From positions 1 to 64,000 of the forward strand of contig CAJTBF010000009.1 in the NCBI GenBank assembly GCA_910574195.1: a stretch of DNA of 64,000 nucleotides. The letters run 5' to 3'. Positions within the stretch are counted from its first letter, which is position 1. Every line of letters begins with the position of its first letter. Of the stretch, positions 226-26,531 are shown one piece after another. Both the position numbers and the translations under genes were made by a program. The stretch is from Lachnospiraceae bacterium. GTDB lineage: Bacteria; Bacillota; Clostridia; Lachnospirales; Lachnospiraceae. The notes under the pieces were generated by a model. It did not search any database. It saw nothing but the letters and a program-made list of their open reading frames with translations, and was not told the origin of the DNA.

Positions 226-2334
226 GTGAAAAGGAAAAGTAAGCGTAGGAGAAGAAAAAATAAAATCTTATGGGTACTTATGATATGTATGGGAATTAGT
301 GCAATAACCTTATGTGCAACTAAATTCATTGGAATAAGAAAAGACAGGACAACACCGGAAGAAGTGTTGCTGAAATATATGGGATACATTCAGGAACAGA
401 ACTATATAGCTATGTATCAGTTGATTGATGTGGAAGCCTCCGGGCAAATTAGCGAAGAAGATTTTGTAAAGCGCAATTCAGCCATTTATGAGGGGATTGA
501 AGTACAAAATATGGCTGTTACGATTCTTTCCTGCGACATGGAAAAAAATGTAGTGCGGTACCAGACAGACTTTGATACTGTGGCTGGAGAGATTAGCTTT
601 GAGAATGAAGCGTATTTTCTAAAAACCGAAGATACATACAAACTGGCATGGATGGATGCTCTGATTTATCCGGAGTTATTGGAAACGGATAAAGTGCGGG
701 TGTCCGTTACGCAGGCAAAGAGGGGAGAAATATTAGACAGGAATGGGCGTGTCCTTGCAGGGAAAGGCACAGCGTCTTCTGTGGGGATTGTGTCGGGGAA
801 ATTAGAAAATCAGGATGATTCTTTAAAACAGATAGCAGATCTGCTGGGTATGAAGCCGGAAGAAATAGAGAAGAAATTATCAGCAAAATGGGTAAAGGAT
901 GATTCCTTTGTCCCGGTCAAAAAGTTGCGGAAAGTGGAAGAAATAGAATTGATGTCATTAGAGCCGGATGAAGAAGCGCTAAAAGAGTATGAAAGACAAC
1001 AACGGCTGCTGGAGATACCGGGGGTTATGATTTCTGATACGGAAGTAAGGTCTTATCCTTTGAAAGATGCGGCGGCACATCTGGTTGGTTATGTTCAGAA
1101 TGTGACAGCAGAAGATTTGGAAAATCATGTGGGAGAAGGTTATACGGCAAGCAGTGTAATTGGGAGAAGTGGAGCAGAGGGATTGTTTGAGAAAGAATTA
1201 AAGGGGCAGAATGGGTGTCGTATTTATATTGTGGATTCGGATGGGAACGAAAAAGAGGAACTTGCTTGCCGAATAGTAGAAAATGGGAAAGACATAAAAC
1301 TGACAATAGATTCTGAACTCCAAAAGGCTTTATATGAACAATTTCAGAGCGATAAAAGCTGTTCGGTAGCGATGAATCCGTACACAGGGGAAGTGCTGGC
1401 ATTGGTAAGCACACCCTCTTATGATAACAACGATTTTATCATGGGATTGTCCAGCGAAAAATGGGCGGCATTGAATGAGGATGAAAACAAACCAATGTAT
1501 AACCGTTTCCGGCAGGTATGGTGTCCGGGTTCTACCTTTAAACCGATTACTGCGGCAATCGGTTTAGAGTCCGGAGCGGTTGATCCCAATGAAGATTATG
1601 GAAATGTAGGATTAAGCTGGCAGAAAGACGCTTCATGGGGTTCGTATCATGTGACAACTCTCCACGCTTATAATCCGGTTGTTTTGGAAAACGCTATCAT
1701 TTATTCCGATAATATTTACTTTGCAAAGGCAGCATTGAAAATTGGTGCAGCGGAAATGAAAGATTCTCTGCTGCGTTTAGGCTTTCAGGAAGAATTGCCA
1801 TTTGAAATTGTAATGGCTAAGTCGCAATATTCTAATACGGAAAATATTGAAACGGAAATACAACTGGCAGATAGCGGATACGGACAAGGACAGATTTTAA
1901 TCAATCCATTGCACATGGCTTGTATTTATACGGCTTTTTGCAATGAAGGAAATGTAATAAAGCCGCATCTGCTATATAGTCAGGAAACGAAAACCGAATA
2001 TTGGATTCCCAATGCCTTTTCAGTGAATCATACAAACATGGTATTAGAAGGGTTGAAAAAAGTAGTGAATGATTCTCATGGAACGGGATATGCGGCACAC
2101 AGGGAAGATATTCTGCTGGCAGGGAAAACCGGGACAGCAGAAATCAAGGTATCCAAAGAGGACACTTCCGGTACGGAACTGGGATGGTTTGCCATTTTTA
2201 CGGCAGAAAGAACAGAGGAAAACCCGATTTTGATTATAAGCATGGTTGAAGATGTAAAAGGGAGAGGAGGAAGCGGTTATGTTGTTGGAAAAGACAAACA
2301 GGTTTTGGAAAGCTGGCTTAATCGAAAAGAATAA
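226..2334 (+). CDS. MecA-like class B penicillin-binding protein (transpeptidase)
   Basis: This is a membrane-anchored D,D-transpeptidase that cross-links peptidoglycan. In order it shows a basic N-terminus, a TM segment (~res 15-35), an NTF2-like MecA_N domain (~45-155), a PBP dimerisation domain (~165-340) and a transpeptidase domain. The active-site motifs are all present: STFK (S436), SDN (S494) and KTG (K634). The MecA_N domain is characteristic of low-affinity PBP2a-type proteins. I start it at GTG 226, which has GGAGG at 216-220 at ideal spacing; ATG 214 is in frame but lies on that ribosome site. The gene overlaps the next one by 56 nt and heads an operon of envelope genes. Its promoter carries BlaI-type operators. 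Beta-lactam tolerance is inferred from family and regulation, not shown. Confidence 0.9.
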   Translation: MKRKSKRRRRKNKILWVLMICMGISAITLCATKFIGIRKDRTTPEEVLLKYMGYIQEQNYIAMYQLIDVEASGQISEEDFVKRNSAIYEGIEVQNMAVTILSCDMEKNVVRYQTDFDTVAGEISFENEAYFLKTEDTYKLAWMDALIYPELLETDKVRVSVTQAKRGEILDRNGRVLAGKGTASSVGIVSGKLENQDDSLKQIADLLGMKPEEIEKKLSAKWVKDDSFVPVKKLRKVEEIELMSLEPDEEALKEYERQQRLLEIPGVMISDTEVRSYPLKDAAAHLVGYVQNVTAEDLENHVGEGYTASSVIGRSGAEGLFEKELKGQNGCRIYIVDSDGNEKEELACRIVENGKDIKLTIDSELQKALYEQFQSDKSCSVAMNPYTGEVLALVSTPSYDNNDFIMGLSSEKWAALNEDENKPMYNRFRQVWCPGSTFKPITAAIGLESGAVDPNEDYGNVGLSWQKDASWGSYHVTTLHAYNPVVLENAIIYSDNIYFAKAALKIGAAEMKDSLLRLGFQEELPFEIVMAKSQYSNTENIETEIQLADSGYGQGQILINPLHMACIYTAFCNEGNVIKPHLLYSQETKTEYWIPNAFSVNHTNMVLEGLKKVVNDSHGTGYAAHREDILLAGKTGTAEIKVSKEDTSGTELGWFAIFTAERTEENPILIISMVEDVKGRGGSGYVVGKDKQVLESWLNRKE

Positions 2335-3553
2335 AAAAGCTCTTTTATTTGTAATGATAATACTGATATTGCCGATCATGACAGGGTGCAGCGATGAAAC
2401 ACCGGAGGTATCAGATATAGAGATAACGCAGCAAGACAGAGAAGTATATTCTTTCGATAATAATGATTCTGTCAGTACAGAGTGTATAGCGGAGATTCTC
2501 AGTGATATTTATGAGGAAGCAGTAGATACAAATACATTGGGAAGTCTGGATATGATGCGGTGCATGGTTGCCAGACTGGGTGAAAATGGTTATGTGGCTG
2601 TTGATAGTGGGAATCAGATTGATATGGTGCAGGCAGAGCAGGCTTTAGATTTTTGTAAAGCAGTAGATGAAAAAGAGATGGACGAATTGACAATTATAGT
2701 GGTTATGGAGATGGGGATTCGTAAATTTGATTTGAAAACAGAGGGCGGTAATGTAAATATTGTCAGGGGATATTATCAATATGACCAGAATGGCAGTCTG
2801 CAGAACAGAAGTACAGTAAGCTACCCGGCGGACTTCTGGCAGTATACGGAGGAAGGTTATTTAATCTTTGAGGGGAGCTATTTTTCAGATGAAAGTTATA
2901 TATTGACATTAAGCGACACACCAGAACATACGATGCTTCGGATTTTGCCTTTGGATGAAAAGTGCAGGGAATATAACCGAAAGTATATCCTGCCAGTTGG
3001 TTATGAACAAAACAACCTGTTTCTCTGTAATTGGAGCGAGGACGATTTTGGGGATTTGGACTTTTACGATTTATTTGACAGGTTCTATCCAATGACGCAC
3101 AGCCAGCCAGTGCCTTACATGGCGGATGAAAATTTAGGAGTTGGAGCTGTTTACCAAATACAGGAAGAGCTATTTGAAAATGTGATTGGGGCATATTTCA
3201 ATATGGATCGTGAAACGCTCCGTTCTAAAACAACATATCTTTCAGAGCTTGCAGCCTATGAATATAGACCACGAGGATTTTACGAGGTGGAATATCCGGA
3301 TATTGCATATCCGGAAGTAGTGAGTTATACGGAAAACGAGGATGGAACAGTTACGCTTTATATCAATGCAGTATATCCCAATGGAAATATGTCTAAGGAG
3401 TTTGCACACATAACCGTAATCCGTCCATTAAGTGAGGAAAGTTTTCAGTATGTATCGAATGAGATAACCTTGCCGGAAGGAGACCATGATATTTGGTGGC
3501 ATTCCAATCGGTTGACGGAGGAAGAATGGAAAGAGGTTTATGGAGGGACTTGA
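2279..3553 (+). CDS. lipoprotein, paralogue 1 of 3 (function unknown)
   Basis: Starts at ATG 2279 inside the PBP gene's end, with GGAGG 8 nt upstream, so translation is probably coupled. The N-terminus is a lipoprotein signal with lipobox PIMTGC. The mature ~390-residue part is acidic and has no motif I recognise. It shares a conserved segment (R-I-L-P-L-x-x-x-x-R, then a hydrophobic stretch, then NW) and a C-terminal ENEDGTVTLYINAV block with the genes at 3557 and 5578, so the three are paralogues. Placement behind a beta-lactam-regulated PBP suggests a cell-envelope role. I recall similar proteins carrying a DUF label (possibly DUF6070) but cannot confirm it. Confidence 0.75.
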   Translation: MLLEKTNRFWKAGLIEKNKKALLFVMIILILPIMTGCSDETPEVSDIEITQQDREVYSFDNNDSVSTECIAEILSDIYEEAVDTNTLGSLDMMRCMVARLGENGYVAVDSGNQIDMVQAEQALDFCKAVDEKEMDELTIIVVMEMGIRKFDLKTEGGNVNIVRGYYQYDQNGSLQNRSTVSYPADFWQYTEEGYLIFEGSYFSDESYILTLSDTPEHTMLRILPLDEKCREYNRKYILPVGYEQNNLFLCNWSEDDFGDLDFYDLFDRFYPMTHSQPVPYMADENLGVGAVYQIQEELFENVIGAYFNMDRETLRSKTTYLSELAAYEYRPRGFYEVEYPDIAYPEVVSYTENEDGTVTLYINAVYPNGNMSKEFAHITVIRPLSEESFQYVSNEITLPEGDHDIWWHSNRLTEEEWKEVYGGT

Positions 3554-5577: not shown

Positions 5578-6834
5578 ATGAAGAAAAAGAGGATATTGCC
5601 GATTATCATGCTGATGTGCATCGTTTTGCTATGCGCCTGTAATCATAACAGGAAAAGTATGAAAAACGAGTATGCTGAACAAGTCGGAGAAAAGGAATAT
5701 GCTGAAAATACAGACAGGGATGCAGACACAGACAGGCAGATAGAAAAAGGCTATGATCTTCCAATAGATGCAAGGCAAAGAGCAGAAGCGGAAGAAGATT
5801 GCAAGGAAATGATGGGGCTTATATTGGAGCTATATAAAAATGCAGATAAAGGCTGTGCGTCCAATGTTGTCATTGCAGATGAAGTCATAGATCAGATGGT
5901 GGAAAAGTTGAAAGTTACCGGATGCCCGGTCACAATAACGGAAATATATTCTAACATGGAAAACTACACGAAACTGGAAGATTTTTTAAATGCTGCCGCA
6001 GCAGGCAGAGGAGGTTCGGCAGTTGTTTATGAGATACATTCAGACGGCGGTATCGGGAGATATAAATACTCTTATGATGGAAAGGATATGTACGTTTTAT
6101 CTGCAAAAGCTGCATGGAATGATGATAAGCCTGTGATAACCTATATTTCCTATACCCGTATGAAAGAATGGAGATTTACGGATAAAGGATATTTCTGCTA
6201 TGAGTTATGCGTACCGGAATATCCGGAAGTTACTGAAATAGTAGATGGGAGCTGTATGGTCAGGGTAAAGCCCATTACAGAAGAAAACAGGGAAATGTCA
6301 AAAAAATGTGTGCTTGGATTAGCCTATCAGGGAAACAATCTTTTATGTTCTGACTGGGATGCAGACCATATGGAATATTTAGATTATAATGGGATGTATG
6401 AATATTTATATGCAATGAAATATCAGGAGCAGTTTCCTTCAGAGGATTATCCGGATGGGATACCAAAAGACGAGTTTGAACGCCTGATTATGGAATACCT
6501 TCCGGTAACAGAGGAAGAAATACAAGATTATGCGGCATTTGACAAAGAAAAACAGACTTATGCATGGGTAAGGCTTGGCTGCTTCAATTATGCCCCTACT
6601 TATTTTGGAACTTCATTTCCAGAGGTTACGGATATCAGGGAAAACGAAGACGGGACAGTTACTTTAACTGTGGATGCGGTATGCAGCATGATTTTATGTG
6701 ATGATGCGGTGATAACGCATGAGCTTACAGTGCGGTTTTCAGAAGATGGCGGCTTTCAGTATTTGGAAAACAAAATTCTGGATGATGGGATTTCAAATAT
6801 ACCGGATTATCAATACAGGATTGTCAGAGAGTGA
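5578..6834 (+). CDS. lipoprotein, paralogue 3 of 3
   Basis: The signal peptide ends in lipobox LLCAC. An acidic, polar linker (res ~25-70) leads into the same conserved domain as the genes at 2279 and 3557, including MVRVKPITEENREMSKK, a CSDWDADHMEYL segment and NEDGTVTLTVDAV near the C-terminus. Three tandem paralogues in one operon suggest duplication within the unit. No catalytic motif is visible. It lies 41 nt after the preceding gene with GAGGTG upstream of ATG. Confidence 0.75.
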   Translation: MKKKRILPIIMLMCIVLLCACNHNRKSMKNEYAEQVGEKEYAENTDRDADTDRQIEKGYDLPIDARQRAEAEEDCKEMMGLILELYKNADKGCASNVVIADEVIDQMVEKLKVTGCPVTITEIYSNMENYTKLEDFLNAAAAGRGGSAVVYEIHSDGGIGRYKYSYDGKDMYVLSAKAAWNDDKPVITYISYTRMKEWRFTDKGYFCYELCVPEYPEVTEIVDGSCMVRVKPITEENREMSKKCVLGLAYQGNNLLCSDWDADHMEYLDYNGMYEYLYAMKYQEQFPSEDYPDGIPKDEFERLIMEYLPVTEEEIQDYAAFDKEKQTYAWVRLGCFNYAPTYFGTSFPEVTDIRENEDGTVTLTVDAVCSMILCDDAVITHELTVRFSEDGGFQYLENKILDDGISNIPDYQYRIVRE

Positions 6835-14112: not shown

Positions 14113-15783
14113 ATGGATAAAAACATTTCATACATATCTTACATGGCTGCTGTGTACCTGCGTCTGTCAAAAGAAGATGAAGATTTGCAGGAGATAAAGG
14201 ATAAGAAAGAAAGCAACAGCATCGCCAATCAAAAGGCATTGATATTAAAAACATTAGAATCTATGCCAGATGTTACCCTTTATGACATATATATAGATGA
14301 CGGATTTACAGGACTCAACTTTGAGCGTCCAAATTTTCAGCGTATGTGCGAAGATATTTATAATGGCAGAGTGAACATGGTCATTGTAAAGGATTTGTCA
14401 AGGTTGGGGCGTGATTATATTGATTCGGGGCGATATGTGAAAAAAATATTCCCGTCCTATCATGTCAGGTTTGTATCTGTACTGGATCATTTTGATAGTC
14501 TGACAGCAACACAAAGCGATGTGAACCTGTTAATTCCTGTTAAAAATTTTGTAAATGACAATTACAGCCGGGACATATCCGGCAAAGTGAGAAGTCATCA
14601 GGAGGTTATGCGTGAAAATGGGCTGTATGTTGGTTCTCATGTTGCATATGGCTATAAAAAGCTGGAAACTGACAGGAATAGAATTATACCGGATGAATAT
14701 GCCGCAGACATTGTTCGTAAGATTTTTGACTGGAAACTGAAAGGATTGAGTTCAGCATCAATAGCAGATAAACTCAATGGACTTGGCGTGGCAGCTCCTT
14801 CCGAGTACAAAAGACAGCTTGGAGGAAATTATAAAAGCGGCTTTCAAAAAAACAGGAAAGCAAAATGGTCGGCGGTGGCAATCAACCGCATATTGAGAAA
14901 TAAAATTTATATCGGGGTACTTGAACAGGGCAAACGTGAAAAAGTTAATTATAAATTGAATAAGGTTGTTGAAAAGCCTGAAACCGAATGGGCGGTAAAG
15001 GAAAATACGCATGAAGCGATTATTAGTAAGGCAGACTTTGAGAATGTTGCAAAACTCCTTAACCTCGATACTCGTAAATCACCGGAGGAAGAAACTCTGT
15101 TCATGCTTTCAGGTTTGATGTTCTGTGGGGAATGTGGAAGAAGCATGGTAAGACGCTGTAACCGATATAAGGATAAACAGAGCGTTTACTATATATGCGC
15201 TACCTATAATAAAGGAAAAGGGTGTAGCCGACACAGCATCGCTCAGTCAGTAATAGAAGATATTCTTCTGGATACAATTAAAAGGCATATTGAACACGTT
15301 GCCAGATTGGAGGAGCTTTTAAACACTATCAGAGATAGGGAAGTTAATTATGATGATATAGTGGCAAATGACCGGGAGATTCTCGCAAAGTATAAAGAAC
15401 TGGATCAGTGTAAAAAGGTGGAAATGTCTTTGCACAGAGATCTTGCTGCAGGAATTATTTCTATCAAGGAATATAAACAGTTTAAAAATAATTTTGCCCA
15501 CAAGTCCGCAGAAATAGAGGAAACTATTAGAAAATTACAGCAGGAAATAGAAACGGTTTTTGAGGAAGGACTGTTTGCGGATGAATGGATTGACACATTT
15601 ACAAAAACAGGAAATATTACTTCATTAGATAGAAGTATCGTGCTGTCATTGGTGGAAAAGATTACAGTCTATGAAGAAAACAGGATTGAAATTACTTTTA
15701 AGTATCAGGATGAATACGAAACCTTGTGCAGAATTATTGAAACACTTCCAGCATCTTTGAAGGAGGTGGGCAGCAATGGCTAG
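14113..15783 (+). CDS. large serine recombinase 1
   Basis: 556 aa. The N-terminal resolvase domain has catalytic Ser19 in YLRLSKED and the conserved VIVKDLSRLGRDY. A Recombinase domain (~170-290) follows, then a zinc ribbon (CGEC...YYICATYNKGKGC, ~340-380), a coiled coil and a C-terminal beta segment. This is the full architecture of site-specific integrases such as TnpX. GGAGGAAGCAG precedes ATG. It overlaps the next recombinase gene by 8 nt, so the three genes form one operon. It is expected to integrate and excise the element together with, or in competition with, the other two. Confidence 0.93.
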   Translation: MDKNISYISYMAAVYLRLSKEDEDLQEIKDKKESNSIANQKALILKTLESMPDVTLYDIYIDDGFTGLNFERPNFQRMCEDIYNGRVNMVIVKDLSRLGRDYIDSGRYVKKIFPSYHVRFVSVLDHFDSLTATQSDVNLLIPVKNFVNDNYSRDISGKVRSHQEVMRENGLYVGSHVAYGYKKLETDRNRIIPDEYAADIVRKIFDWKLKGLSSASIADKLNGLGVAAPSEYKRQLGGNYKSGFQKNRKAKWSAVAINRILRNKIYIGVLEQGKREKVNYKLNKVVEKPETEWAVKENTHEAIISKADFENVAKLLNLDTRKSPEEETLFMLSGLMFCGECGRSMVRRCNRYKDKQSVYYICATYNKGKGCSRHSIAQSVIEDILLDTIKRHIEHVARLEELLNTIRDREVNYDDIVANDREILAKYKELDQCKKVEMSLHRDLAAGIISIKEYKQFKNNFAHKSAEIEETIRKLQQEIETVFEEGLFADEWIDTFTKTGNITSLDRSIVLSLVEKITVYEENRIEITFKYQDEYETLCRIIETLPASLKEVGSNG

Positions 15784-17458
15784 GACAGCGGACAGATACT
15801 TAAAGAAAAATGTTAAAACAAAGGCAGCACCTAAAATATATGATGTTGGAAATTATTTAAGACTATCAGTAGACAGTGATTATACTGGAAGCGATTCTTT
15901 ACAAAATCAAAGAAAGCTGGCACAGGAATATGTAAGGGGATGCCCTGATCTGAATATAGTAAGAGAATATGTTGATGATGGAAAAACAGGTACAGATTTT
16001 TCACGTCCGGCATTTACCAGAATGATAGCCGATTTAAAAGCTGGAATTATCAACTGTGTTCTTGTAAAGGACTTATCCCGGTTTGGAAGGGAATACATCG
16101 AAGCCGGGAATTATATTGAAAAGGTATTTCCTTTTTTGGGGGTTCGCTTCATATCCATTGTTGACAGGTATGACAGTGCTGATGCGAATTGCAGTAGGGA
16201 GTTGTTGCTCATATCGCTTAAAAATCTTATGCATGAGATGTATGCAAAGGATATTTCTAAAAAAGTAGGAAGCACATTCCGGATGAAGCAGGAAAAAGGG
16301 ATGTTCTACCGCAGTGCTACGATTCCTTATGGATATAAGATGAATGAAAGTGGTACGAATTATATCATCTGTGAGCAGACAGCTCCGATTGTACGAGAGA
16401 TATTTAAACAGTGTAGCAAGGGGATTTCTAATTATGCAATAAGCCGGTGGTTATATGATAATCACGTTTATACGCCACAGCAATATGCTTGGACAGGCAA
16501 CGTATATAGGAAGCCGGAAGAAGAATTGAAAATATGGCATTGCTCTACAATTAAACGGATTCTGGAAAATCCTGTCTATATCGGCAGGGTTATAAGACAT
16601 AAATCCGAGCAGAGCTTCTTTGTGGGAAAAAAGGCAAGTCCAGTACCGGAACAGGAGCAGATTATTATTGAAAACAACCATGAACCGATTATTGAGAAGT
16701 CGATGTTTGAGATTGTTCAGAAGATACTAAGTCAGACAAAAGATAAAAAAACCGAGTCTGCCTGTGAACGCCAAACTGTTGTATTTGAGAGGAATGTATT
16801 TCAAGGGAAGCTGTTTTGTGGCTCTTGTAAAGCAAATATGGTCAGGGTAGGCGCTTATCGCTCTGTTAATGGGGTAAAGGAGCAATACAAGGTTTTTAAA
16901 TGCAGTACCCATAGAAATCATTGTGATTTGTGCGATACAAGGTGGATTGCAGAGGACTTGTTGTGCGATATTCTGTATGCTACGATACGCAAACATTTGA
17001 GTTTGATAAAAGGGATAAAAAAACAGATAGAAAAAGATATTCGGTATTCCTTTGAAGAAAACCTGAAACAGACAGAATGGAAAAGACAAAAGATTGTGAG
17101 TACAAAGAACCTGTTGGAGCAGGAGTATATGCAGAAATATTCAGATTATGCGGAAGGAAGTATCTCACAGGCGGCATTTCTGCAATATAAAAGTACTTAT
17201 CATGAGAAAATGGAACTATGTCGGAAACAGGAGGATGTTTGTACTAAAGAGGTAAAAGGGATAAAGAAGTGTCAGGCGGCTTTGCAAAAACTATTGTCGG
17301 ACTGGCTTTGCTTTCAGAATACAAGGAAATTGACGGAAACAATGGTAGAAATCTGTGTTGACAGAATGGAGCTTTTTACTGATAACCGGGTGGAAATAAA
17401 GTTAAGGTATCAGGATTGCTTTGAACTTCTTGAAAACTGGATGCGGAAGGAGGTGTAA
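15776..17458 (+). CDS. large serine recombinase 2
   Basis: 560 aa. After ~20 extra basic residues the resolvase domain carries Ser31 in YLRLSVDSD and VLVKDLSRFGREY. The Recombinase domain, a zinc ribbon (CGSC ... FKCSTHRNHC) and a long coiled coil follow. The start lies inside the end of recombinase 1 behind GGAGGTGGGC. The protein is clearly divergent from both neighbours, which argues against a recent tandem duplication and for division of labour, as with CcrA/CcrB. Confidence 0.93.
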   Translation: MARTADRYLKKNVKTKAAPKIYDVGNYLRLSVDSDYTGSDSLQNQRKLAQEYVRGCPDLNIVREYVDDGKTGTDFSRPAFTRMIADLKAGIINCVLVKDLSRFGREYIEAGNYIEKVFPFLGVRFISIVDRYDSADANCSRELLLISLKNLMHEMYAKDISKKVGSTFRMKQEKGMFYRSATIPYGYKMNESGTNYIICEQTAPIVREIFKQCSKGISNYAISRWLYDNHVYTPQQYAWTGNVYRKPEEELKIWHCSTIKRILENPVYIGRVIRHKSEQSFFVGKKASPVPEQEQIIIENNHEPIIEKSMFEIVQKILSQTKDKKTESACERQTVVFERNVFQGKLFCGSCKANMVRVGAYRSVNGVKEQYKVFKCSTHRNHCDLCDTRWIAEDLLCDILYATIRKHLSLIKGIKKQIEKDIRYSFEENLKQTEWKRQKIVSTKNLLEQEYMQKYSDYAEGSISQAAFLQYKSTYHEKMELCRKQEDVCTKEVKGIKKCQAALQKLLSDWLCFQNTRKLTETMVEICVDRMELFTDNRVEIKLRYQDCFELLENWMRKEV

Positions 17459-17462
17459 GTTT

Positions 17463-19109
17463 ATGATTATGGCATTGTATTTAAGGTTGTCAAAGGAAGA
17501 TGGCGATATGATTGATGAAAGCAACAGTATTACAAATCAAAGGTTTATCCTCCGCAAGTTCGTGGAGGAAAGACCGGAATTTGATAGTTATGAGATTAAG
17601 GAGTACATAGACGATGGATTCAGCGGGAAGAACTTTGAAAGACCGGGGATTCAGGAACTGTTGGAGGATGTCAGATCGGGCAAGGTGTTCGGTATTATCG
17701 TGAAAGATTTTTCACGTTTTGGAAGAAACCATATTGAGGTTGGAAATTACATTGAAAAGATATTTCCATTACTGGATGTTCGCTTTATTGCGGTCAACAA
17801 TAGCTTTGACAGTAAAGACTACTTAGGCACGACACCAGATATGGATGTGGCATTTGAAAATCTGATGTATGATTATTTCAGTGAGGAAAATTCCGTTAAA
17901 ATCAAGAATGACTTAATGGGAAGGCGAATGAGAGGAAAGTATTTAGCTACTTTTGCGGTATTTGGCTACAAAAAATCTCCAGATGACCATAATCATATTG
18001 TGATAGACGAAACCGCTGCAGCCATTGTACGCATGATTTTTGAAAAGTATGCGGAGTGTGGGGTAAAGGCAAAGGTGGCAAGATACTTAAATCAACAAGG
18101 GATTCCGACACCGCAAGTCTATGCAATGAAAAGCGGCAGCACTTATCAATGGAAGTATCAGGAAGAAAAAAAGCTGTGGAATGGCTCTATTATAGGAAGA
18201 ATTTTGAAAAATGAGCTATATATAGGGAACAACGTATTTCATAAAAAAGAAACTGTCGAGGTTGGATCGAGAAAAACAAAGTGTTTGCCTAAAGATGAGT
18301 GGAAGGTATGCGAAGGCACACATGAACCAATCATATCGAAGGAATTATTTGAATTGGTGAACAGCAAGGACTTTGGGAATACAGGCATTGTGAAACCGAT
18401 AGGACAAGGCAATGGGGAGGGAATAGATAAAAAAGTATATTGTGAGGGGGAAAAGCGGAAAAGGGGAAGTGCGGATTCCCCCATTAAGGGATTAGTAAAA
18501 TGTGGCGGTTGCAGACACAATATGCAACGTAGGAGTCGATTAAATGTTTCCTACTATTGCAGATACTACTATGAAGCCAAGCAAGTTGAATGTTGCCGGG
18601 AAAATGTTAGGGAAACGGAGCTTATAGAAATTGTATTGTCTGCAATCAGACATCAGGCAAGATTAGCAGGTGAAACGGAAAAACTGCGGGATTTATATAA
18701 TATGCAGCATCAGGAACGTGTTAGGGAAAATCTGGAGCAAGAAAAGATGCTTCAGGAACAGATACAGAAACTTACAGATAGCAATTTTTCACTATATGAA
18801 AGCTATACAAGAGGTGAAATTGATGCCAATGAGTTTATGAGGAAAAAAGAAGATAACAATAAACAGATCGAAAGATACAAAACCAAACTTCAAGTCTGCC
18901 ATACAAAAGAAACGCCAGTGCCGGACGAAAGCATGAGTTTGTTAAAGCTGTTAGAGGGAAAAGAAAACCTTACAGAGCTTACAAAAGAACTTGTCAGACA
19001 GCTTATAGATGCTATCTATGTATATAATGATCGCCGCATTGAAATAGTTTTTAAGTTTCAGGACAAAAATGCCTGTCCCGATAGAAAAGATATAGAAGCT
19101 ATGTTATGA
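17463..19109 (+). CDS. large serine recombinase 3
   Basis: 548 aa from ATG 17463, with GGAGG just before the stop of recombinase 2. The resolvase domain has Ser10 in YLRLSKEDGD and IIVKDFSRFGRNH. The Recombinase domain, a zinc ribbon (CGGC ... YYCRYYYEAKQVECC) and a coiled coil are all present. All three recombinases look intact. Triplets of this kind have been seen in Firmicutes mobile elements; how they divide the work is not clear to me. Confidence 0.93.
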   Translation: MIMALYLRLSKEDGDMIDESNSITNQRFILRKFVEERPEFDSYEIKEYIDDGFSGKNFERPGIQELLEDVRSGKVFGIIVKDFSRFGRNHIEVGNYIEKIFPLLDVRFIAVNNSFDSKDYLGTTPDMDVAFENLMYDYFSEENSVKIKNDLMGRRMRGKYLATFAVFGYKKSPDDHNHIVIDETAAAIVRMIFEKYAECGVKAKVARYLNQQGIPTPQVYAMKSGSTYQWKYQEEKKLWNGSIIGRILKNELYIGNNVFHKKETVEVGSRKTKCLPKDEWKVCEGTHEPIISKELFELVNSKDFGNTGIVKPIGQGNGEGIDKKVYCEGEKRKRGSADSPIKGLVKCGGCRHNMQRRSRLNVSYYCRYYYEAKQVECCRENVRETELIEIVLSAIRHQARLAGETEKLRDLYNMQHQERVRENLEQEKMLQEQIQKLTDSNFSLYESYTRGEIDANEFMRKKEDNNKQIERYKTKLQVCHTKETPVPDESMSLLKLLEGKENLTELTKELVRQLIDAIYVYNDRRIEIVFKFQDKNACPDRKDIEAML

Positions 19110-19658: not shown

Positions 19659-19712
19659 ACTGGAAGCATAAATATAGGGAAAAATGACAGAAAACGACAC
19701 AAAATCCCCTGT

Positions 19713-19754
19713 TTCAAAAATTTTTTCAAAAAGTTCGTGTCATTAACTTGACAC
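19713..19754. other. right end of element A (attachment-type sequence, copy 1)
   Basis: A T- and A-rich stretch leads to the inverted repeat GTGTCA-TTAACT-TGACAC (19737-19754), directly followed by spmA coding sequence. The identical sequence precedes the third spmA fragment (26197-26238). A related end (TTAG-CTTGACACAA) precedes the second fragment at 21942-21955. A dyad at an element/chromosome border is typical of serine-recombinase attachment sites. Confidence 0.65.
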
Positions 19755-20047
19755 AAGGGGGGCTGAAGGCCATGGAAGAATTGGAGAAGTTGGAAGAGGA
19801 CAGAAGAAACGGACGTCTCCCAGGGCCGGTGAGAAAACGGGGGATTGCCAGTAATGAGATGTGTACATTTCTGATATTGAATATTTCTTCTTTGCAGTTG
19901 ATCCCAATGAATATTATTGCCTACCGGAGCCAGTACGGGAGCGTGAATCCGGCGGGAATCGTAGGGGCAGGGATTGCGGCGACGGCGGTGAGTACATTGG
20001 TGGCGGTGGTGTATTGCAAGGTGATGGATAGGAAGCGGGGAACGTAG
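19755..20047 (+). pseudogene. spmA: spmA 3' half, copy 1 (spore maturation protein A, interrupted)
   Basis: The frame encodes GGLKAMEELEKLEED, then ASNEMCTFLILNISSLQLIP and IIAYRSQYGSVNP, which match the C-terminal half of SpmA, a membrane protein needed for spore core dehydration. The N-terminal half is missing here; sequence before ~19755 is element DNA. Bases up to 19935 are identical to the third copy. From 19936 on the sequence is a clearly different allele (AGIVGAGIAATAVSTLVAVV, ending MDRKRGT). The open frame persists, so decay is recent, or the gene may be restored by excision. Confidence 0.85.
19922..19935. repeat. 14-bp attachment repeat, copy 1
   Basis: TACCGGAGCCAGTA in spmA marks the exact point where copies 1 and 3 diverge. 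The same 14 bp is the left limit of copy 2 (21959-21972) and is present once, uninterrupted, in copy 3 (26406-26419). Confidence 0.8.
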
Positions 20048-20149: not shown

Positions 20150-20192
20150 AACATAATAAAAACGTAAATAACGTGGAAAAAAGGTGGAGGAC

Positions 20193-21350
20193 ATGAAAAT
20201 CTTAAAACTATCCATAAAAGGTTTACAAAATTTAAAAAATACTTTAGATGTGGACTTCGTTGCACAACAAAGAGTAGACAATGATGCCAGAGAACAAATG
20301 TTCAATGTGTTTTCTAATGTTTATACAAGTCCAACATTATCTTTTATTGGGATTAATGCATCTGGTAAGACAACAATCCTAAAATTGATTTCTTTTGCTA
20401 TAGGATTATTAAATAATGAACCTATTAATAGTATTTCCTCTAAAAAATTTTTGGACGACTTAGATAGTAAACAAAATATGATTTTTACTGCTTATTTTTA
20501 TCATAATGGCATTGTATATAAATTGGAAACAATAGTAGGAAGAAAAAGAAATGCTATTGATGGCAATACAAAATTTGTAATTATAGATGAAACATTATGG
20601 GAAAAAGAAATTCATAAGATAAAAACGAAAAAAAGACTTTATGATTTTAATGATGCCCAAGTAAAAATCCGAAGAAATAAAAATGAACAGTATCTAATAG
20701 AAGATGTTAGTATTATAGTTGCTTTAAATAAAGAACAAGACACGAATTTTTCCTTATATGATATGTCAGATTTCACAGATCATAATATGTTGAATTTTTT
20801 AGGCCAGTATCCGAAAGAAATATTAACTTTTTTAGATCCTAGCATCGAAACCCTTAGCTGTGAACCAACTGAAAAAAAAGTTGATATCAGATTGAAATTT
20901 TATGAAAAAGAAGAGCTAACGTTAAATAGTCCGTTAGCACTTAACAGATATCTTTCTTCAGGTACAATAAAAGGTCTGAGTGTATTTATGGGGGCAGTAT
21001 TTTCATTTTTGGAAGGGGGATATTTGATTGTAGATGAATTAGAAAATCATTTTAACAAAGAAATTGTTTCAACATTAATACGATTTTTCATGGATAAAAA
21101 AGTCAATAAAAAAGGGGCAACTCTGATTTTTTCAACTCATTATTCAGAATTGCTAGATGAATTTGAAAGGAACGACAGTATTTATATTACAAAAAACAAA
21201 GATGGGATTACTGCCGAAAAACTTTCTGGTATTTTGAAAAGAAATGATATTAAAAAAAGTGAGATATACGATAGTGATTTTCTTGAGGGAACCGTACCTG
21301 CTTATGAATCTTATATTGCTCTGAAAAAAGCGCTAATATCATTAAGATAG
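20193..21350 (+). CDS. AAA/ABC-type ATPase of a two-gene defence pair (RloA/AbiL/PARIS-like)
   Basis: 385 aa from ATG 20193 with AAGGTGGAGG upstream. Walker A is GINASGKTTILK (~res 51-62). The signature-like segment is RYLSSGTIKGL, Walker B is YLIVDELENHF and the switch His is in FSTHYSEL. This is the OLD/RloA/AriA-type layout, with a large insert between Walker A and the signature. The next gene, 11 nt downstream, encodes a Toprim/RloB-like protein. Such pairs act in abortive phage defence. AT content is higher than in flanking DNA, which fits transfer. Confidence 0.8.
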   Translation: MKILKLSIKGLQNLKNTLDVDFVAQQRVDNDAREQMFNVFSNVYTSPTLSFIGINASGKTTILKLISFAIGLLNNEPINSISSKKFLDDLDSKQNMIFTAYFYHNGIVYKLETIVGRKRNAIDGNTKFVIIDETLWEKEIHKIKTKKRLYDFNDAQVKIRRNKNEQYLIEDVSIIVALNKEQDTNFSLYDMSDFTDHNMLNFLGQYPKEILTFLDPSIETLSCEPTEKKVDIRLKFYEKEELTLNSPLALNRYLSSGTIKGLSVFMGAVFSFLEGGYLIVDELENHFNKEIVSTLIRFFMDKKVNKKGATLIFSTHYSELLDEFERNDSIYITKNKDGITAEKLSGILKRNDIKKSEIYDSDFLEGTVPAYESYIALKKALISLR

Positions 21351-21361
21351 GAGGCTTTAAA

Positions 21362-21880
21362 ATGGCAAAATATTTAGCATGTATATGCGAAGGCGGTGCC
21401 GAACACGCGATATTAGATTTATTACTGGACAACCATAGCTTAGTTTTTGAGAGAGAAGATCTAATTGAAGAAGAAGTGTTAAAATGCCGACGAGGAAGAG
21501 ATTTTGAAGAAAAGTACCTAAAGAAAGGCTTTTCCGAAAAAATAACAGTTTATCGAATTTTAGATTCAAGAAATGAAAATTTTAAGCTACGCAAAGCATA
21601 TGAAAAGAAGGTAGATGTTATAAATGTAGTTACAGCTCCTGAAATTGAAATGCTTATAATATGTAATGAAGACAGATACAAAGATTTTAAAAATTCAGGA
21701 GAGAAACCAAGTACATATTGTAAGCGTGCTTTGAAATATAGCAAAGTAAAAAGTTATGATTTTATTTATGAATATTTTTCTGATATAAATATCTTAATAA
21801 ATGCGTTGCATGAATATAGACGGATATCAAAAATTCGTAGAAAAGAAATGACCTTATGGGATCTATTAAAACAAAAATAA
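21362..21880 (+). CDS. Toprim/RloB-like putative nuclease effector
   Basis: 172 aa. The N-terminus YLACICEGGAEHAILDLLL resembles the first Toprim motif (EG..E) of RloB and AbiL-type proteins. A later TAPEIEMLIIC segment resembles the RloB P-x-x-E-x-L-I/W block. The classical DxD motif is not obvious (RILDSRN is the closest), so nuclease activity is inference. Its position behind the ATPase in a private cassette supports a toxin/effector role held in check or activated by the ATPase, as in PARIS (AriA-AriB). Confidence 0.65.
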   Translation: MAKYLACICEGGAEHAILDLLLDNHSLVFEREDLIEEEVLKCRRGRDFEEKYLKKGFSEKITVYRILDSRNENFKLRKAYEKKVDVINVVTAPEIEMLIICNEDRYKDFKNSGEKPSTYCKRALKYSKVKSYDFIYEYFSDINILINALHEYRRISKIRRKEMTLWDLLKQK

Positions 21881-21958: not shown

Positions 21959-21972
21959 TACCGGAGCCAGTA
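21959..21972. repeat. 14-bp attachment repeat, copy 2
   Basis: Identical to 19922-19935 and 26406-26419; forms the right border of the 2.0-kb cassette. Confidence 0.8.
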
Positions 21973-22084
21973 TGGGAGTGTGAATCCAACGGCAATCGTG
22001 GGACCAGGAATTGTGGCAACGGCGGTGAGTACGTTGGTGGCGATTGTTTTTTGTAAAGCGGTGGGAGGAAAGCGGAGGATATAA
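21959..22084 (+). pseudogene. spmA: spmA 3' end, copy 2 (fragment)
   Basis: Starts abruptly at TACCGGAGCCAGTA, preceded by element-end sequence CTTGACACAA. Bases 21959-22077 are identical to 26406-26524, then diverge at the last codons (CGG AGG ATA TAA). An inverted repeat (22068-22098) overlaps the stop but lacks a T-run. This is the original spmA 3' end displaced by the cassette to its left. Confidence 0.8.
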
Positions 22085-22139: not shown

Positions 22140-22168
22140 TTGAGAGAAACTGTTTTTTAGGGTATACT
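22140..22168 (+). promoter_or_regulatory. promoter of the EVE/DUF262/ATPase/HNH operon
   Basis: TTGAGA (22140-22145) and TATACT (22163-22168) are spaced by 17 nt, about 90 bp before the first gene. The four genes downstream are closely packed with no terminator seen between them. Confidence 0.65.
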
Positions 22169-22258: not shown

Positions 22259-23229
22259 ATGTCTGTCCATGTTTTTTCAGTTAATGAGGAAAATTATAAA
22301 ATTTGTATTCAACATGGTCTGGTTGGATTGCCCGAGCCAAAGGAAACCCGAAATCAGAATAATACTTTTGATGGATTGCTTTCTAGGTTAACTGCAGTTC
22401 GAGAAGATGACTATATTTTGATGTATGTGATTGGAACAAAGGAATTACGGGGATTGTGGCAGGCAGATGGAAAACCTTTTTACGACAATACTCCGATTTG
22501 GACAGACAGAACGTATCCATTCCGATGCAAAATAAAATATGCATCATATAATTTCGAACATGCCTTAAAATTGATGATATAAATGATTTGAGAAATACAG
22601 GAAAACTTTGGACTTGGGCACTACAACGTACCAGTGGAACAAATGCAATGTTCTCTATTTCTAATAATGAATTTGAAACTTTACTGGATGAGTATATAAA
22701 AATTAATCCTTTTACAATGCGTAAGGGAATCATTAGAGAACCGTATCCTTTTCGTGAATATAATTTGCTTGATTACATCCATATTGAAAAAGGGAATCCT
22801 CAATATGAATATTCCATAATGACTCTTTTAAATTATGCATTTGCAAACGGATTCTATACGGATATTTTTGGAAATTATACAGATTATCTAAGCTATGTTC
22901 CTACTAATTTAGGCAGAGAAATAGATATTCTATTAATGTTTGGAAACTTACGGAATTCACAAATCGCATCATACGATATTATTGAAGTAAAGCGTGCTGA
23001 ATTTGATTCAAAGGCTTTGGTTCAATTAATTGATTATGAGTCGTGGTTTTTGCAGAAGAAAGTTTCAGGAGATTTAAATATGATTCGCACTACGGCTATT
23101 GCCCGGAATTTTTCTGATGATGTGATTAATTATGTGAAAAATCGTAAATTTTTTGAGAATAAGCCTATTAAATTGTTAACCTATCATTATTCGCAAAATA
23201 AATTGCTGTCCTTACAACAAATATTATAA
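22259..23229 (+). pseudogene. EVE-domain/PD-(D/E)XK nuclease protein, frameshifted
   Basis: ATG 22259 has AGGAGG upstream. The first ~105 residues look like an EVE/PUA-type modified-base reader (DYILMYVIGTKELRGLWQAD, then TYPFRCKIKY). The frame stops at 22582. The -1 frame carries on directly (KIDDINDLRNTGKLWTWALQ) to 23229, and contains a nuclease-like GREIDILLMF ... YDIIEVKRAEF, the D...ExK pattern. One missing base in the A4 run at 22567-22570 explains the break. Intact, it would be ~323 aa and a plausible modification-dependent nuclease. Slippage on the A-run or a sequencing error are alternatives. Confidence 0.7.
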
Positions 23230-23261
23230 TATAATTCAAAAAATCTGAGGAGGAAACGATA

Positions 23262-24395
23262 TTGAGCATGATAAGCGATTTAAAAGGAATCAGTATTCAA
23301 CAATATAAGACAGATGTTGGATTTCGTACACTGGTAGAAGGTGTAAACGAAAATTTGTATATTATACCTAAATATCAGAGAAAATATCGTTGGAGTAAGG
23401 AACAGGTTATTTCGTTAGTTGAATCATTGATTCGTGGTTTACCGATTCCGCCAATTTATACTTGCAGGAACAGGGAGAATCAATTGGAAATCCTGGATGG
23501 ACAACAGCGTGTTCTGAGTTTGTTTTTTTATTATATAGGTTATTATTTAGACAGAAGAAAAAGCAATTCTGTAGATTTTTCAGAAATCCAGGTGCATAAT
23601 ATTCCTTTTAAAGAAGCCTTGACAAGCCAACTGGCATTAGAAGAACTTCATATTCAACTAAAAAATGAAGATGAAAAAGTTTTTAATGTAGATTATGCTT
23701 CTCTTCCTATGGAAATGAAAAGACGCATAGACTATACGTCAATTACTGTTATAGAAATAAAAATTGATGACGAAAAACAACGTACAAAAATATTAAGAAA
23801 AATTTTTGAAAATTTAAATGCTAAAGGTTCTCTTTTAATGCAGCAGGAATTGAGAAATGGAATATATGTATGTGATTTTTATACTATGCTGCAAGAATAT
23901 AACAGGCATAATGATAAATGGCGAAAAATATGGGGGAAAGAGGATGCTGCAGAACGCGACATGGAAACTCTTTTGCGGTTTTGTGCATTGAAAAAGTATG
24001 TTAGAATCGAGCAAAAGGATTCAATAAATTTTAATTTTATCATAGAAAACTATCATAGTTCCTATACAAAATTGTTAGATAAGTTTTCAGAAGAGTCCAT
24101 GAAATTTGACAAAAAACAAATTAAAGAATATAGAAATAGTTTGAGTTACTTTTTTGATTTATTTAAAGTAAATGTAACACAGTCATCAAAGGTGGCCTTA
24201 TTGGAGAGTTTTTATATTGTTTATGAGAAATTGGGGGTTCACAAACCAGTTACATCTGTAATATATAATAAAATATTACATGATCCAAGATATATATCCC
24301 ATGCGCGGCAGGGAACAGTTAAAATGAGAAGCATGAATGAAAGGTGGAAAACAGTGTATGAAATTTGGTCTGGAGATGATAAATCATATCATTGA
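23262..24395 (+). CDS. DUF262 (GmrS/ParB-fold) protein
   Basis: 377 aa from TTG 23262 with AGGAGG 8 nt upstream; ATG 23268 is an alternative. The N-terminal DUF262 core has IPKYQRKYRWSKEQV, RGLPIPPIYTC and the hallmark LDGQQRVLSL. This fold is found in GmrSD-type modified-DNA nucleases and SspE. The C-terminal part is helical, and I see no DUF1524 HNH motif, so nuclease activity may be supplied by the HNH gene two positions down. It overlaps the ATPase gene. Confidence 0.85.
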   Translation: MSMISDLKGISIQQYKTDVGFRTLVEGVNENLYIIPKYQRKYRWSKEQVISLVESLIRGLPIPPIYTCRNRENQLEILDGQQRVLSLFFYYIGYYLDRRKSNSVDFSEIQVHNIPFKEALTSQLALEELHIQLKNEDEKVFNVDYASLPMEMKRRIDYTSITVIEIKIDDEKQRTKILRKIFENLNAKGSLLMQQELRNGIYVCDFYTMLQEYNRHNDKWRKIWGKEDAAERDMETLLRFCALKKYVRIEQKDSINFNFIIENYHSSYTKLLDKFSEESMKFDKKQIKEYRNSLSYFFDLFKVNVTQSSKVALLESFYIVYEKLGVHKPVTSVIYNKILHDPRYISHARQGTVKMRSMNERWKTVYEIWSGDDKSYH

Positions 24396-25305
24396 CAAAA
24401 TATACAACGAAGAATTGCCTTATACAGACAGCATTATCATAGGAGAGAACTCTGGCGGAAAAACATTATTACTAAAACTATTTATAGAGAAGACAAAGAA
24501 TGATAGGGCTGTATATTTTATTGATGCGGTTAACCGTGGATTTGATGTAAAGAAAGTTTCCCCAATAGATAAAAGTCCAAAGTATAAAAAAACTATTTTA
24601 GATACAAGATTACAAGATATGAATTTTAATTTAGTTGATTCTTTTAATTGTTTTGGAACTTTAACAGAAAGGGTAGAAATAATTTATCAATTATATGAAA
24701 AAGAAGTTCAAAATTTATTTTTTGAATTAACAAACGACAGGTTTAAAATAGACTATGATGCTTCATTAGGAGAAGTAGATTTCGGAAACGGAAAGGGGCA
24801 CTTATCAAGCGGTTATCAGGCAATAATACGCATATTACTTGAATTACTCTATTATCAGGATATGGAAATTAAAGTGAACGCATTGCAATATGCATGGGTT
24901 GTAATAGATGAATTGGACGAATACTTATCTCCCAGATATTCTGCTGCAATTTTGAAATTTTTGAAGAAAACATTTCCATGGGCAAGATGGGTTGTGACAA
25001 CACATTCTTGCGATTTAGTAGCATCCACAAACGATTCTAATCTGATAATTTTAGATAATGGCAGTTATGAAGTTGCGGATAGTAATGACTATCCATCTAT
25101 TTCAGAGGTGCAGATCATTTTTGATCGAGTATTCGGAAATTATGAGATTTTCGGATCAGAGACAGAAAATACTTTAAGAAGATTGCTGAATAATAAGATT
25201 AATGGCGCATGGGGAGAAAAAGATGAAGAATGTCTTGAACAGATAGAAAGCGGGAAATTGACTGCTTCACAGCAAATAATTGTACATCAAATACGAGAAT
25301 GGTGA
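24358..25305 (+). CDS. PtuA-like/SMC-type ABC ATPase
   Basis: 315 aa from ATG 24358 with GGTGG upstream; an in-frame ATG at 24337 is further inside the DUF262 gene. It has Walker A GENSGGKTLLLK (~res 28-39), signature LSSGYQAI, Walker B WVVIDELDEYL and switch VTTHSCDLV. The insert between Walker A and the signature is short, as in compact defence ATPases. The HNH gene follows after 7 nt, the order seen in Septu (ptuA-ptuB) systems. Confidence 0.8.
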   Translation: MKFGLEMINHIIDKIYNEELPYTDSIIIGENSGGKTLLLKLFIEKTKNDRAVYFIDAVNRGFDVKKVSPIDKSPKYKKTILDTRLQDMNFNLVDSFNCFGTLTERVEIIYQLYEKEVQNLFFELTNDRFKIDYDASLGEVDFGNGKGHLSSGYQAIIRILLELLYYQDMEIKVNALQYAWVVIDELDEYLSPRYSAAILKFLKKTFPWARWVVTTHSCDLVASTNDSNLIILDNGSYEVADSNDYPSISEVQIIFDRVFGNYEIFGSETENTLRRLLNNKINGAWGEKDEECLEQIESGKLTASQQIIVHQIREW

Positions 25306-25312
25306 GTGTTAA

Positions 25313-26104
25313 ATGGAAGATTTTTTGTTACTTGAGATGCCCGTATTTCAGCCACATTATAAAAAATGGAAAAAATATGGTTATACAAATCCAATAGAAA
25401 AAAACAATTTAAAGGACACCTTAGAAGAAAGTACAGGTGGATATTGCATGTATTGTTATACACGGGTTCGTGTAGATGAAAAACTATATGCTAATTTGGA
25501 ACATGCAATTGAAAAAAGTAATTCAGACAAATTGATTGAATGTGTGCCTAATATAGGGCTGTCTTGTCCGGTTTGTAATCAGACATTTAAACGTATTGGT
25601 GAAAAAAAGAGAAAAATACCTAAAAACGATATCATTCAATATGAGGAATCCAGTAAATGTTCAACTGACTGCCGTAAACAATGTACCGTTCCTTGTAAAG
25701 CATTAAGGAGTTTACAAAAAAAATACAGCAGCCTTATTGATGCAGAAATTGTGTTGCAGCCTATGGGTATTCAGGGCAAGGATTCAAATGAAAAACTAAT
25801 TTTGCAATATAATGTTATGAACATGGAATTTGAACCCGCCAAAGATTCACATACATATTCTGACAGTGAACTTCGATTTATAGAAGCACATATAAAAAAA
25901 TTTCGATTAAACGATCCTCAATACCGTACTCGGCAATTATTTGATTTTGTAAAAAATGTTATAGATAATAATGGAAATCTTCCAAAATACGAGTACAATA
26001 ATTTAATCGTAAAGTTATTTTGTGAGAAGCTAGCGAACAAATCATCAGAAGAAATATTTAAGATTTGTAAAAATATCTTTATTATTACATTTGTTAAAAT
26101 GTAG
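25313..26104 (+). CDS. PtuB-like HNH endonuclease with an extra cysteine cluster
   Basis: 263 aa. The HNH/zinc core is C45-MY-C48, the LEH64 histidine, then N80 and SC85-PV-C88-N89, the pattern of retron/Septu PtuB nucleases. Unusually, a cluster C116-x3-C120-x3-C124-x3-C128 follows; this could bind zinc or an Fe-S cluster. The C-terminal half is helical. It is the last gene of the operon. In Septu the HNH protein is the effector controlled by the ATPase; that role here is inferred. Confidence 0.78.
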   Translation: MEDFLLLEMPVFQPHYKKWKKYGYTNPIEKNNLKDTLEESTGGYCMYCYTRVRVDEKLYANLEHAIEKSNSDKLIECVPNIGLSCPVCNQTFKRIGEKKRKIPKNDIIQYEESSKCSTDCRKQCTVPCKALRSLQKKYSSLIDAEIVLQPMGIQGKDSNEKLILQYNVMNMEFEPAKDSHTYSDSELRFIEAHIKKFRLNDPQYRTRQLFDFVKNVIDNNGNLPKYEYNNLIVKLFCEKLANKSSEEIFKICKNIFIITFVKM

Positions 26105-26196
26105 AGAGTTATTTCGCAAGGATGATCAACTATAAATTGTCCTTATATTTAAAGATGAACTGGAAAGTTTTCTTAAATCGGCAAACAATACCACGA

Positions 26197-26524
26197 TTCA
26201 AAAATTTTTTCAAAAAGTTCGTGTCATTAACTTGACACAAGGGGGGCTGAAGGCCATGGAAGAATTGGAGAAGTTGGAAGAGGACAGAAGAAACGGACGT
26301 CTCCCAGGGCCGGTGAGAAAACGGGGGATTGCCAGTAATGAGATGTGTACATTTCTGATATTGAATATTTCTTCTTTGCAGTTGATCCCAATGAATATTA
26401 TTGCCTACCGGAGCCAGTATGGGAGTGTGAATCCAACGGCAATCGTGGGACCAGGAATTGTGGCAACGGCGGTGAGTACGTTGGTGGCGATTGTTTTTTG
26501 TAAAGCGGTGGGAGGAAAGCGGAG
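26197..26524. repeat. 328-bp direct repeat (intact copy)
   Basis: Identical by eye to 19713-19935 joined to 21973-22077. It includes the element end with the GTGTCA/TGACAC dyad (26221-26238) and nearly all of the spmA 3' half. Confidence 0.8.
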
Positions 26525-26531
26525 AGTATAA
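26239..26531 (+). pseudogene. spmA: spmA 3' half, copy 3
   Basis: Encodes the same SpmA C-terminal half as copy 1 up to YRSQYG, then TAIVGPGIVATAVSTLVAIV and a TAA at 26529-26531. It lacks the N-terminal half. Because it adjoins the core-like genes to the right, this is probably the original chromosomal end of spmA. Confidence 0.85.
26406..26419. repeat. 14-bp attachment repeat, copy 3 (unoccupied site)
   Basis: TACCGGAGCCAGTA uninterrupted inside spmA copy 3; the empty-site equivalent of the cassette borders at 19922 and 21959. Confidence 0.75.

Follow-up and report, generated by a model that had tools for sequence, protein, structure and literature searches.

Does the run of genes at positions 22259–26104 on the + strand of a Lachnospiraceae bacterium contig (CAJTBF010000009.1) form one composite four-gene defence system, as an initial annotation of the locus proposed? 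Positions are those of the window, i.e. the whole 64,000-nucleotide stretch of DNA that was analysed. The best explanation, and in our judgement a probable one, is a Menshen (NsnABC) antiphage operon that follows a separate EVE-PD-(D/E)XK-like gene with a disrupted frame and is carried as a cassette in the spore-maturation gene spmA. Three genes are intact and conserved, the EVE gene is broken in the window and missing or decayed in relatives, and the borders of the unit derive from spmA. The locus looks like a known kind of defence operon and a useful example of it, rather than a new defence system. The unit is compact, as annotated, and occurs once in the genome. Its three intact genes are the following:

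23262..24395, + strand: NsnA, a DUF262/GmrSD_N protein of 377 amino acids (PADLOC, Pfam, alignment, PDB profile)
24337..25305, + strand: NsnB, a PtuA-like ATPase of 322 amino acids, possibly starting at the conserved Met 8 (PADLOC, Pfam, alignment, PDB profile)
25313..26104, + strand: NsnC, a PtuB-like HNH protein of 263 amino acids (PADLOC, NCBIfam, alignment)

The overlap of the DUF262 and ATPase genes that had been noted earlier spans 59 bases (24337–24395), and overlaps are also found in relatives. NsnA matches the PADLOC NsnA model (E-value 1.7e-43) over profile positions 43–379 of 385. The match of NsnC to the PADLOC NsnC model (2.5e-73) covers protein residues 1–262 and profile positions 1–254 of 255, while its best PtuB match reaches only 1.3e-9. 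Pfam places GmrSD_N on the DUF262 protein (5.4e-27) and AAA_21 on the ATPase (1.6e-6); its HNH match on NsnC is weak (0.051) and below the cut-off of that model. With the HNH protein recognized through the NsnC model, the first domain calls are borne out for these three genes, and those for the EVE and nuclease parts are weak. The view that the combination is undescribed was given up, as the three genes match the NsnA, NsnB and NsnC models of PADLOC. Placement in a known subtype, which the initial annotation had itself named as evidence against novelty, is clear for NsnA and NsnC and weak for NsnB, which is outscored by PtuA models.

The triplet is not unique to this genome. Complete or partial copies were found at 19 loci (denoted by L numbers) beyond the window, 11 from a profile scan of genome contigs and eight from whole-genome searches. 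The latter gave positives in 3 of 291 genomes of the class and 9 of 348 of the family, with the window's own genome included in both figures and two of the positive genomes then set aside. Many of the relatives are metagenome assemblies. Three full open reading frames (ORFs) are present at 11 loci (L006, L007, L009, L011, L012, L014, L035, L036, L037, L042 and L045), five loci look damaged (L008, L013, L015, L038 and L044), some of them also stopping at a contig end, and at three the contig starts within the operon (L005, where only B and C remain, L010 and L043). A weak NsnC match restricted to residues 24–93 (G821/L027) and a weak match of the nuclease half described below (G1004/L019) were excluded from the counts, and G976/L039, the contig of L015, was counted once. 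The NsnC family is rare in the 398-genome phylum sample, since the wider search with the PADLOC NsnC model matched only the window's own genome there; it matched none of 14 controls, and no NsnC was found in the plasmids or phages searched.

Alignments A1, A2 and A3 include NsnA, NsnB and NsnC from 14, 13 and 15 of the 20 loci, respectively, window included. The motif DGQQR is invariant in 14/14 NsnA proteins, Walker-type G36, G41 and K42 together with D191-E192 in 13/13 NsnB proteins, and the HNH-type residues C45, C48, E63-H64, N80, C85, C88 and N89 in 15/15 NsnC proteins. When the rows picked for alignment were scanned, all 13 NsnB proteins matched both PtuA models and NsnB, and all 15 NsnC proteins matched the NsnC model. 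The ratio of non-synonymous to synonymous substitution rates (dN/dS) was 0.05–0.23 in eight pairwise comparisons against L006, L007 and L009. Searching the PDB, the NsnB profile matched PtuA and retron ATPase chains (best 1.5e-14), and NsnA residues 25–67 matched 7p9k (1.9e-6), named as a DUF262 protein, which we take to be BrxU. The NsnC profile had no PDB match, and the NsnC structure model was too poor to be used (predicted local distance difference test score, pLDDT, 51.3; residues 5–101 under 50). No DUF1524 or other second domain was found in NsnA by Pfam; GmrSD was ruled out on the lack of DUF1524.

Gene content, conserved residues and operon order are direct observations; how the proteins might act can be proposed by analogy with Septu, as a scheme of sensing, gating and cutting. 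NsnA, a DUF262 NTPase of the GmrS/BrxU type, would be the sensor. NsnB would keep NsnC inactive and release it upon an infection signal from NsnA or upon nucleotide turnover, and NsnC would then cut nucleic acid and halt phage growth. In a review (PMC10952713), the DUF262 gene is required for Menshen resistance, Menshen is grouped with DUF262 systems, and DUF262 proteins of other systems are associated with the cleavage or nicking of DNA. The DUF262 partner makes us lean slightly towards DNA as the substrate of NsnC, with tRNA nearly as likely. In the latter case the same system would cleave host tRNA instead of DNA, resulting in growth arrest or abortive infection. We rate this alternative only somewhat short of even: Septu EcB88 cuts the variable loop of tRNA-Tyr and retron-Eco7 PtuAB lowers the level of that tRNA (PMC13096335, PMC11555353), but a different Septu reportedly works on nicked DNA, tRNA is probably not the target of retron-Eco4 (PMC11555353), and the DUF262 proteins mentioned above are paired with DNA cleavage or nicking.

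Several points weigh against the reading of the operon as Menshen next to a gene that is being lost. The correspondence between the gene names NsnABC and Menshen is our assumption, and a literature search on the Nsn gene names found no paper stating it. The PADLOC NsnB match is partial (1e-9, profile positions 213–284 of 345), compared with 1.3e-18 for the best PtuA model. Six loci (the window, L006, L007, L008, L013 and L015) align across the promoter-like block listed below and the start region of NsnA; of these, the window, L006 and L007 have intact NsnA–C, and the other three have damaged copies. The stretch of the EVE gene that is common to the window and L006 has a dN/dS of 0.234 over 67 codons, and its other 32 codons show no silent change. 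Finally, Menshen is tied to a predicted OLD nuclease/TOPRIM component in the review (PMC10952713), and Pfam and NCBIfam scans found no OLD/TOPRIM domain in the three Nsn proteins.

The PtuA-like scores of the ATPase and the absence of an OLD/TOPRIM match speak for an alternative in which the triplet is a family of its own that is closer to Septu, with PtuA/PtuB-like proteins and a DUF262 sensor, and separate from Menshen. We regard this as unlikely given the NsnA match and the wide difference between the NsnC and PtuB scores. In addition, the divergent triplet at L045 matches NsnA, NsnB and NsnC, and the NCBIfam PtuA and PtuB models, which are models of retron Ec78 proteins, stay far below their cut-offs (37.1 bits vs 500 and 23.4 vs 150, respectively). 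The same low scores led us to reject Septu proper. Related triplets with a strongly PtuA-like ATPase bear on the relationship between Menshen and Septu.

The preferred reading, a Menshen operon with a separate gene before it, also depends on what lies upstream of NsnA:

22140..22168, + strand: promoter-like block (TTGAGA, 17, TATACT), aligning in six loci with small changes
22259..22582, + strand: EVE-like half of the disrupted gene, ORF from 22217 or 22259 (ORFs, NCBIfam, PDB)
22588..23229, + strand: PD-(D/E)XK-like half of that gene, read in a different frame (ORFs, relatives' scans, motif by eye)

The gene had been annotated as a single EVE/PD-(D/E)XK protein, and it consists of two ORFs in different frames. 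The halves together span about 320 amino acids, and the frame change is their only break. The EVE half matches NCBIfam PRK00809 weakly (2.6e-5; 23.9 bits vs a cut-off of 139) and UPF0310 chains in the PDB at E-values of 0.034 and 0.074, also weak, with no Pfam match. The nuclease half has no match in Pfam, NCBIfam, PADLOC or PDB; its motif, REIDIL..IIEVKR, was read by eye, NucS_C was found in two distant relatives weakly and below the Pfam cut-off (0.0035 and 0.012), and its structure model, built from one sequence, is unusable (pLDDT 36.4). The promoter-like block is supported by its alignment in the six loci, since the promoter scan itself is at chance level (23 matches vs 23.2 expected in shuffles).

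Sequence upstream of the triplet is available for 16 of the 19 other loci; L005, L010 and L043 start inside the operon and were excluded. An intact EVE gene was found at none of the 16 in searches with both halves, which a very divergent copy could escape; remnants are present at two (L006 and L013) and nothing at 14. Comparing the triplet with and without the EVE gene, as the initial annotation suggested, therefore gave no other locus with an intact copy. Among the six aligned loci, the window has the gene with its frame disrupted, L006 and L013 retain it with large deletions, and L007, L008 and L015 lack it altogether. Programmed frameshifting was set aside because relatives delete the gene. 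Given the low dN/dS of the surviving stretch, the decay would be recent, or one copy, possibly that of the window, contains an assembly error.

Relatives of the nuclease half are few (2 of 398 phylum genomes and 3 of 348 family genomes, the own genome included); none were found in plasmids, or in viral contigs, where only a pattern search was made. Two distant relatives, L040 and L041, are open ORFs of 388 and 377 amino acids with a mutual identity of 49–50%. Both adjoin DNA methyltransferase genes (read by eye), and L041 also a MutH-domain restriction enzyme; no Nsn gene was found in the 6.6 and 12 kb of sequence around them. The EVE half has no match in these proteins, whose N-terminal domains therefore need not be EVE. 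A 2020 study predicted that EVE-PD-(D/E)XK proteins act as stand-alone type IV restriction enzymes (Bell 2020, PMC7641849). With this prediction, the loss and decay in relatives and the Nsn-free distant relatives, the first gene is best read as a separate restriction-type gene that lies between promoter and NsnA and is being lost. In its present state it would contribute nothing. In the composite proposed at first, the EVE-PD-(D/E)XK protein would be a functional fourth subunit directing the DUF262-ATPase-HNH machinery to modified phage DNA, and the frame change would be an assembly error. This reading is very improbable, although the halves are otherwise unbroken and the gene, lying between the promoter-like block and NsnA, would be co-transcribed, because the upstream DNA of relatives shows the gene absent or decayed (16 of 16 loci), even where the NsnA start region is kept (L007, L008 and L015), and its distant nuclease-half relatives stand without Menshen in the surrounding sequence examined. 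This distinction guards against cataloguing a known system and a decayed neighbour as a new four-gene system.

The suggestion that the unit occupies a mobile slot agrees with its borders, as it is bracketed by repeated 3' parts of spmA:

14113..19109, + strand: three consecutive large serine recombinase genes (14113–15783, 15776–17458 and 17421–19109), left of the first spmA copy
19678..20047, + strand: first copy of the 3' part of spmA (residues 113–208), right end of the recombinase-bearing element
20184..21880, + strand: neighbouring cassette with an AbiLi/AriA-like ATPase (20184–21350) and a partner of 172 amino acids (21362–21880) (PADLOC, Pfam)
21959..22084, + strand: left border, 3' tail of spmA (SpmA residues 170–210) after a TTGACACAA joint
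26162..26531, + strand: right border, where a TTGACACAA end meets the 3' part of spmA (SpmA residues 113–210)

The three spmA 3' matches themselves lie at 19751–20038, 21959–22081 and 26235–26528, and two recombinase-free defence cassettes are found between these repeated ends. The 5' half of spmA lies on a separate contig, C30, where, near codon 115, it gives way to DNA that carries a ParA-like gene (by eye). Of six genomes queried, three had an spmA match; in a genome of the same genus spmA is uninterrupted, and the DNA there agrees with C30 as far as about codon 115 and with the first window copy from that point on. TTGACACAA precedes the spmA sequence at the joints, near codon 115 at two window joints and at those of L005, L006 and L007, and near codon 167 at the middle window joint. 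A whole spmA lies just upstream of Menshen in L006, L007 and L008. In the neighbouring cassette, the ATPase matches PADLOC AbiLi (6e-33) and AriA (1.7e-13) and nothing in the PDB, and its partner has no PADLOC match.

Together, the repeated 3' parts, the split 5' half, the recombinases and the joints indicate that spmA is split by an integrative and conjugative element (ICE)-like element, behind which the AbiLi-like pair and the Menshen cassette form a stack. C30 and the left part of the window would then be the two ends of one element. A possible extension, which we put forward tentatively, is that spmA serves as a repeated landing site for recombinase-free defence cassettes, each with its own spmA 3' part (joint at about codon 115 or 167) behind a TTGACACAA end, and that the three serine recombinases of the neighbouring ICE-like element stack and move these cassettes. 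Menshen and the AbiLi/AriA-like pair would be interchangeable cargo, and excision might be tied to sporulation because the element splits a sporulation gene. A narrow literature search found no paper linking spmA with integrative elements or serine recombinases, which is weak evidence for an undescribed site. spmA may thus be a site where defence cassettes are stacked. The observation on the repeated 3' parts and the separated 5' half of spmA takes in L032 (1501–1842) besides the window positions, and two DUF6070 proteins are encoded left of the recombinases (window 2279–3553 and 5578–6834).

The neighbours of the triplet vary between loci and include fba, glmS, fhs and uvrC (read by eye). At L014 (2562–8795) NsnABC lies directly 3' of a type I restriction HsdR gene, and at L045 (413–9878) the divergent NsnABC is flanked by BrxL and SspA/DndA genes on one side and a TOTE-primase/helicase gene on the other.

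Compared with known systems, the window cassettes resemble cis-mobilizable element (CIME)-like cassettes, with att-like repeats on both sides, recombinase-free cargo and recombinases in a neighbouring element; they differ in that the target is spmA, and their mobility is putative. The first gene would share with the putative EVE-PD-(D/E)XK type IV enzymes (PMC7641849) the probable order of an EVE-like part followed by a PD-(D/E)XK-like part, the latter called from the motif read by eye. It is unlike them in its disrupted frame and in that both domain calls are weak. The operon is like Menshen, on the name link that we assume, in having a DUF262 protein, an ATPase and an NsnC that match the three PADLOC models, the ATPase only in part. 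It is unlike Menshen in that the ATPase is nearer to PtuA models than to NsnB, and no OLD/TOPRIM domain was found, though one is named for Menshen in a review (PMC10952713). NsnA has the GmrSD_N (DUF262) domain and the DGQQR motif in common with GmrSD, BrxU and SspE, but it has no DUF1524 by Pfam and the nuclease is a separate HNH protein. Relative to Septu and the retron I-A PtuAB, the unit has an extra DUF262 gene and its similarity to PtuB is concentrated in the HNH region, while the pairing of an ABC-type ATPase with an HNH protein is the same.

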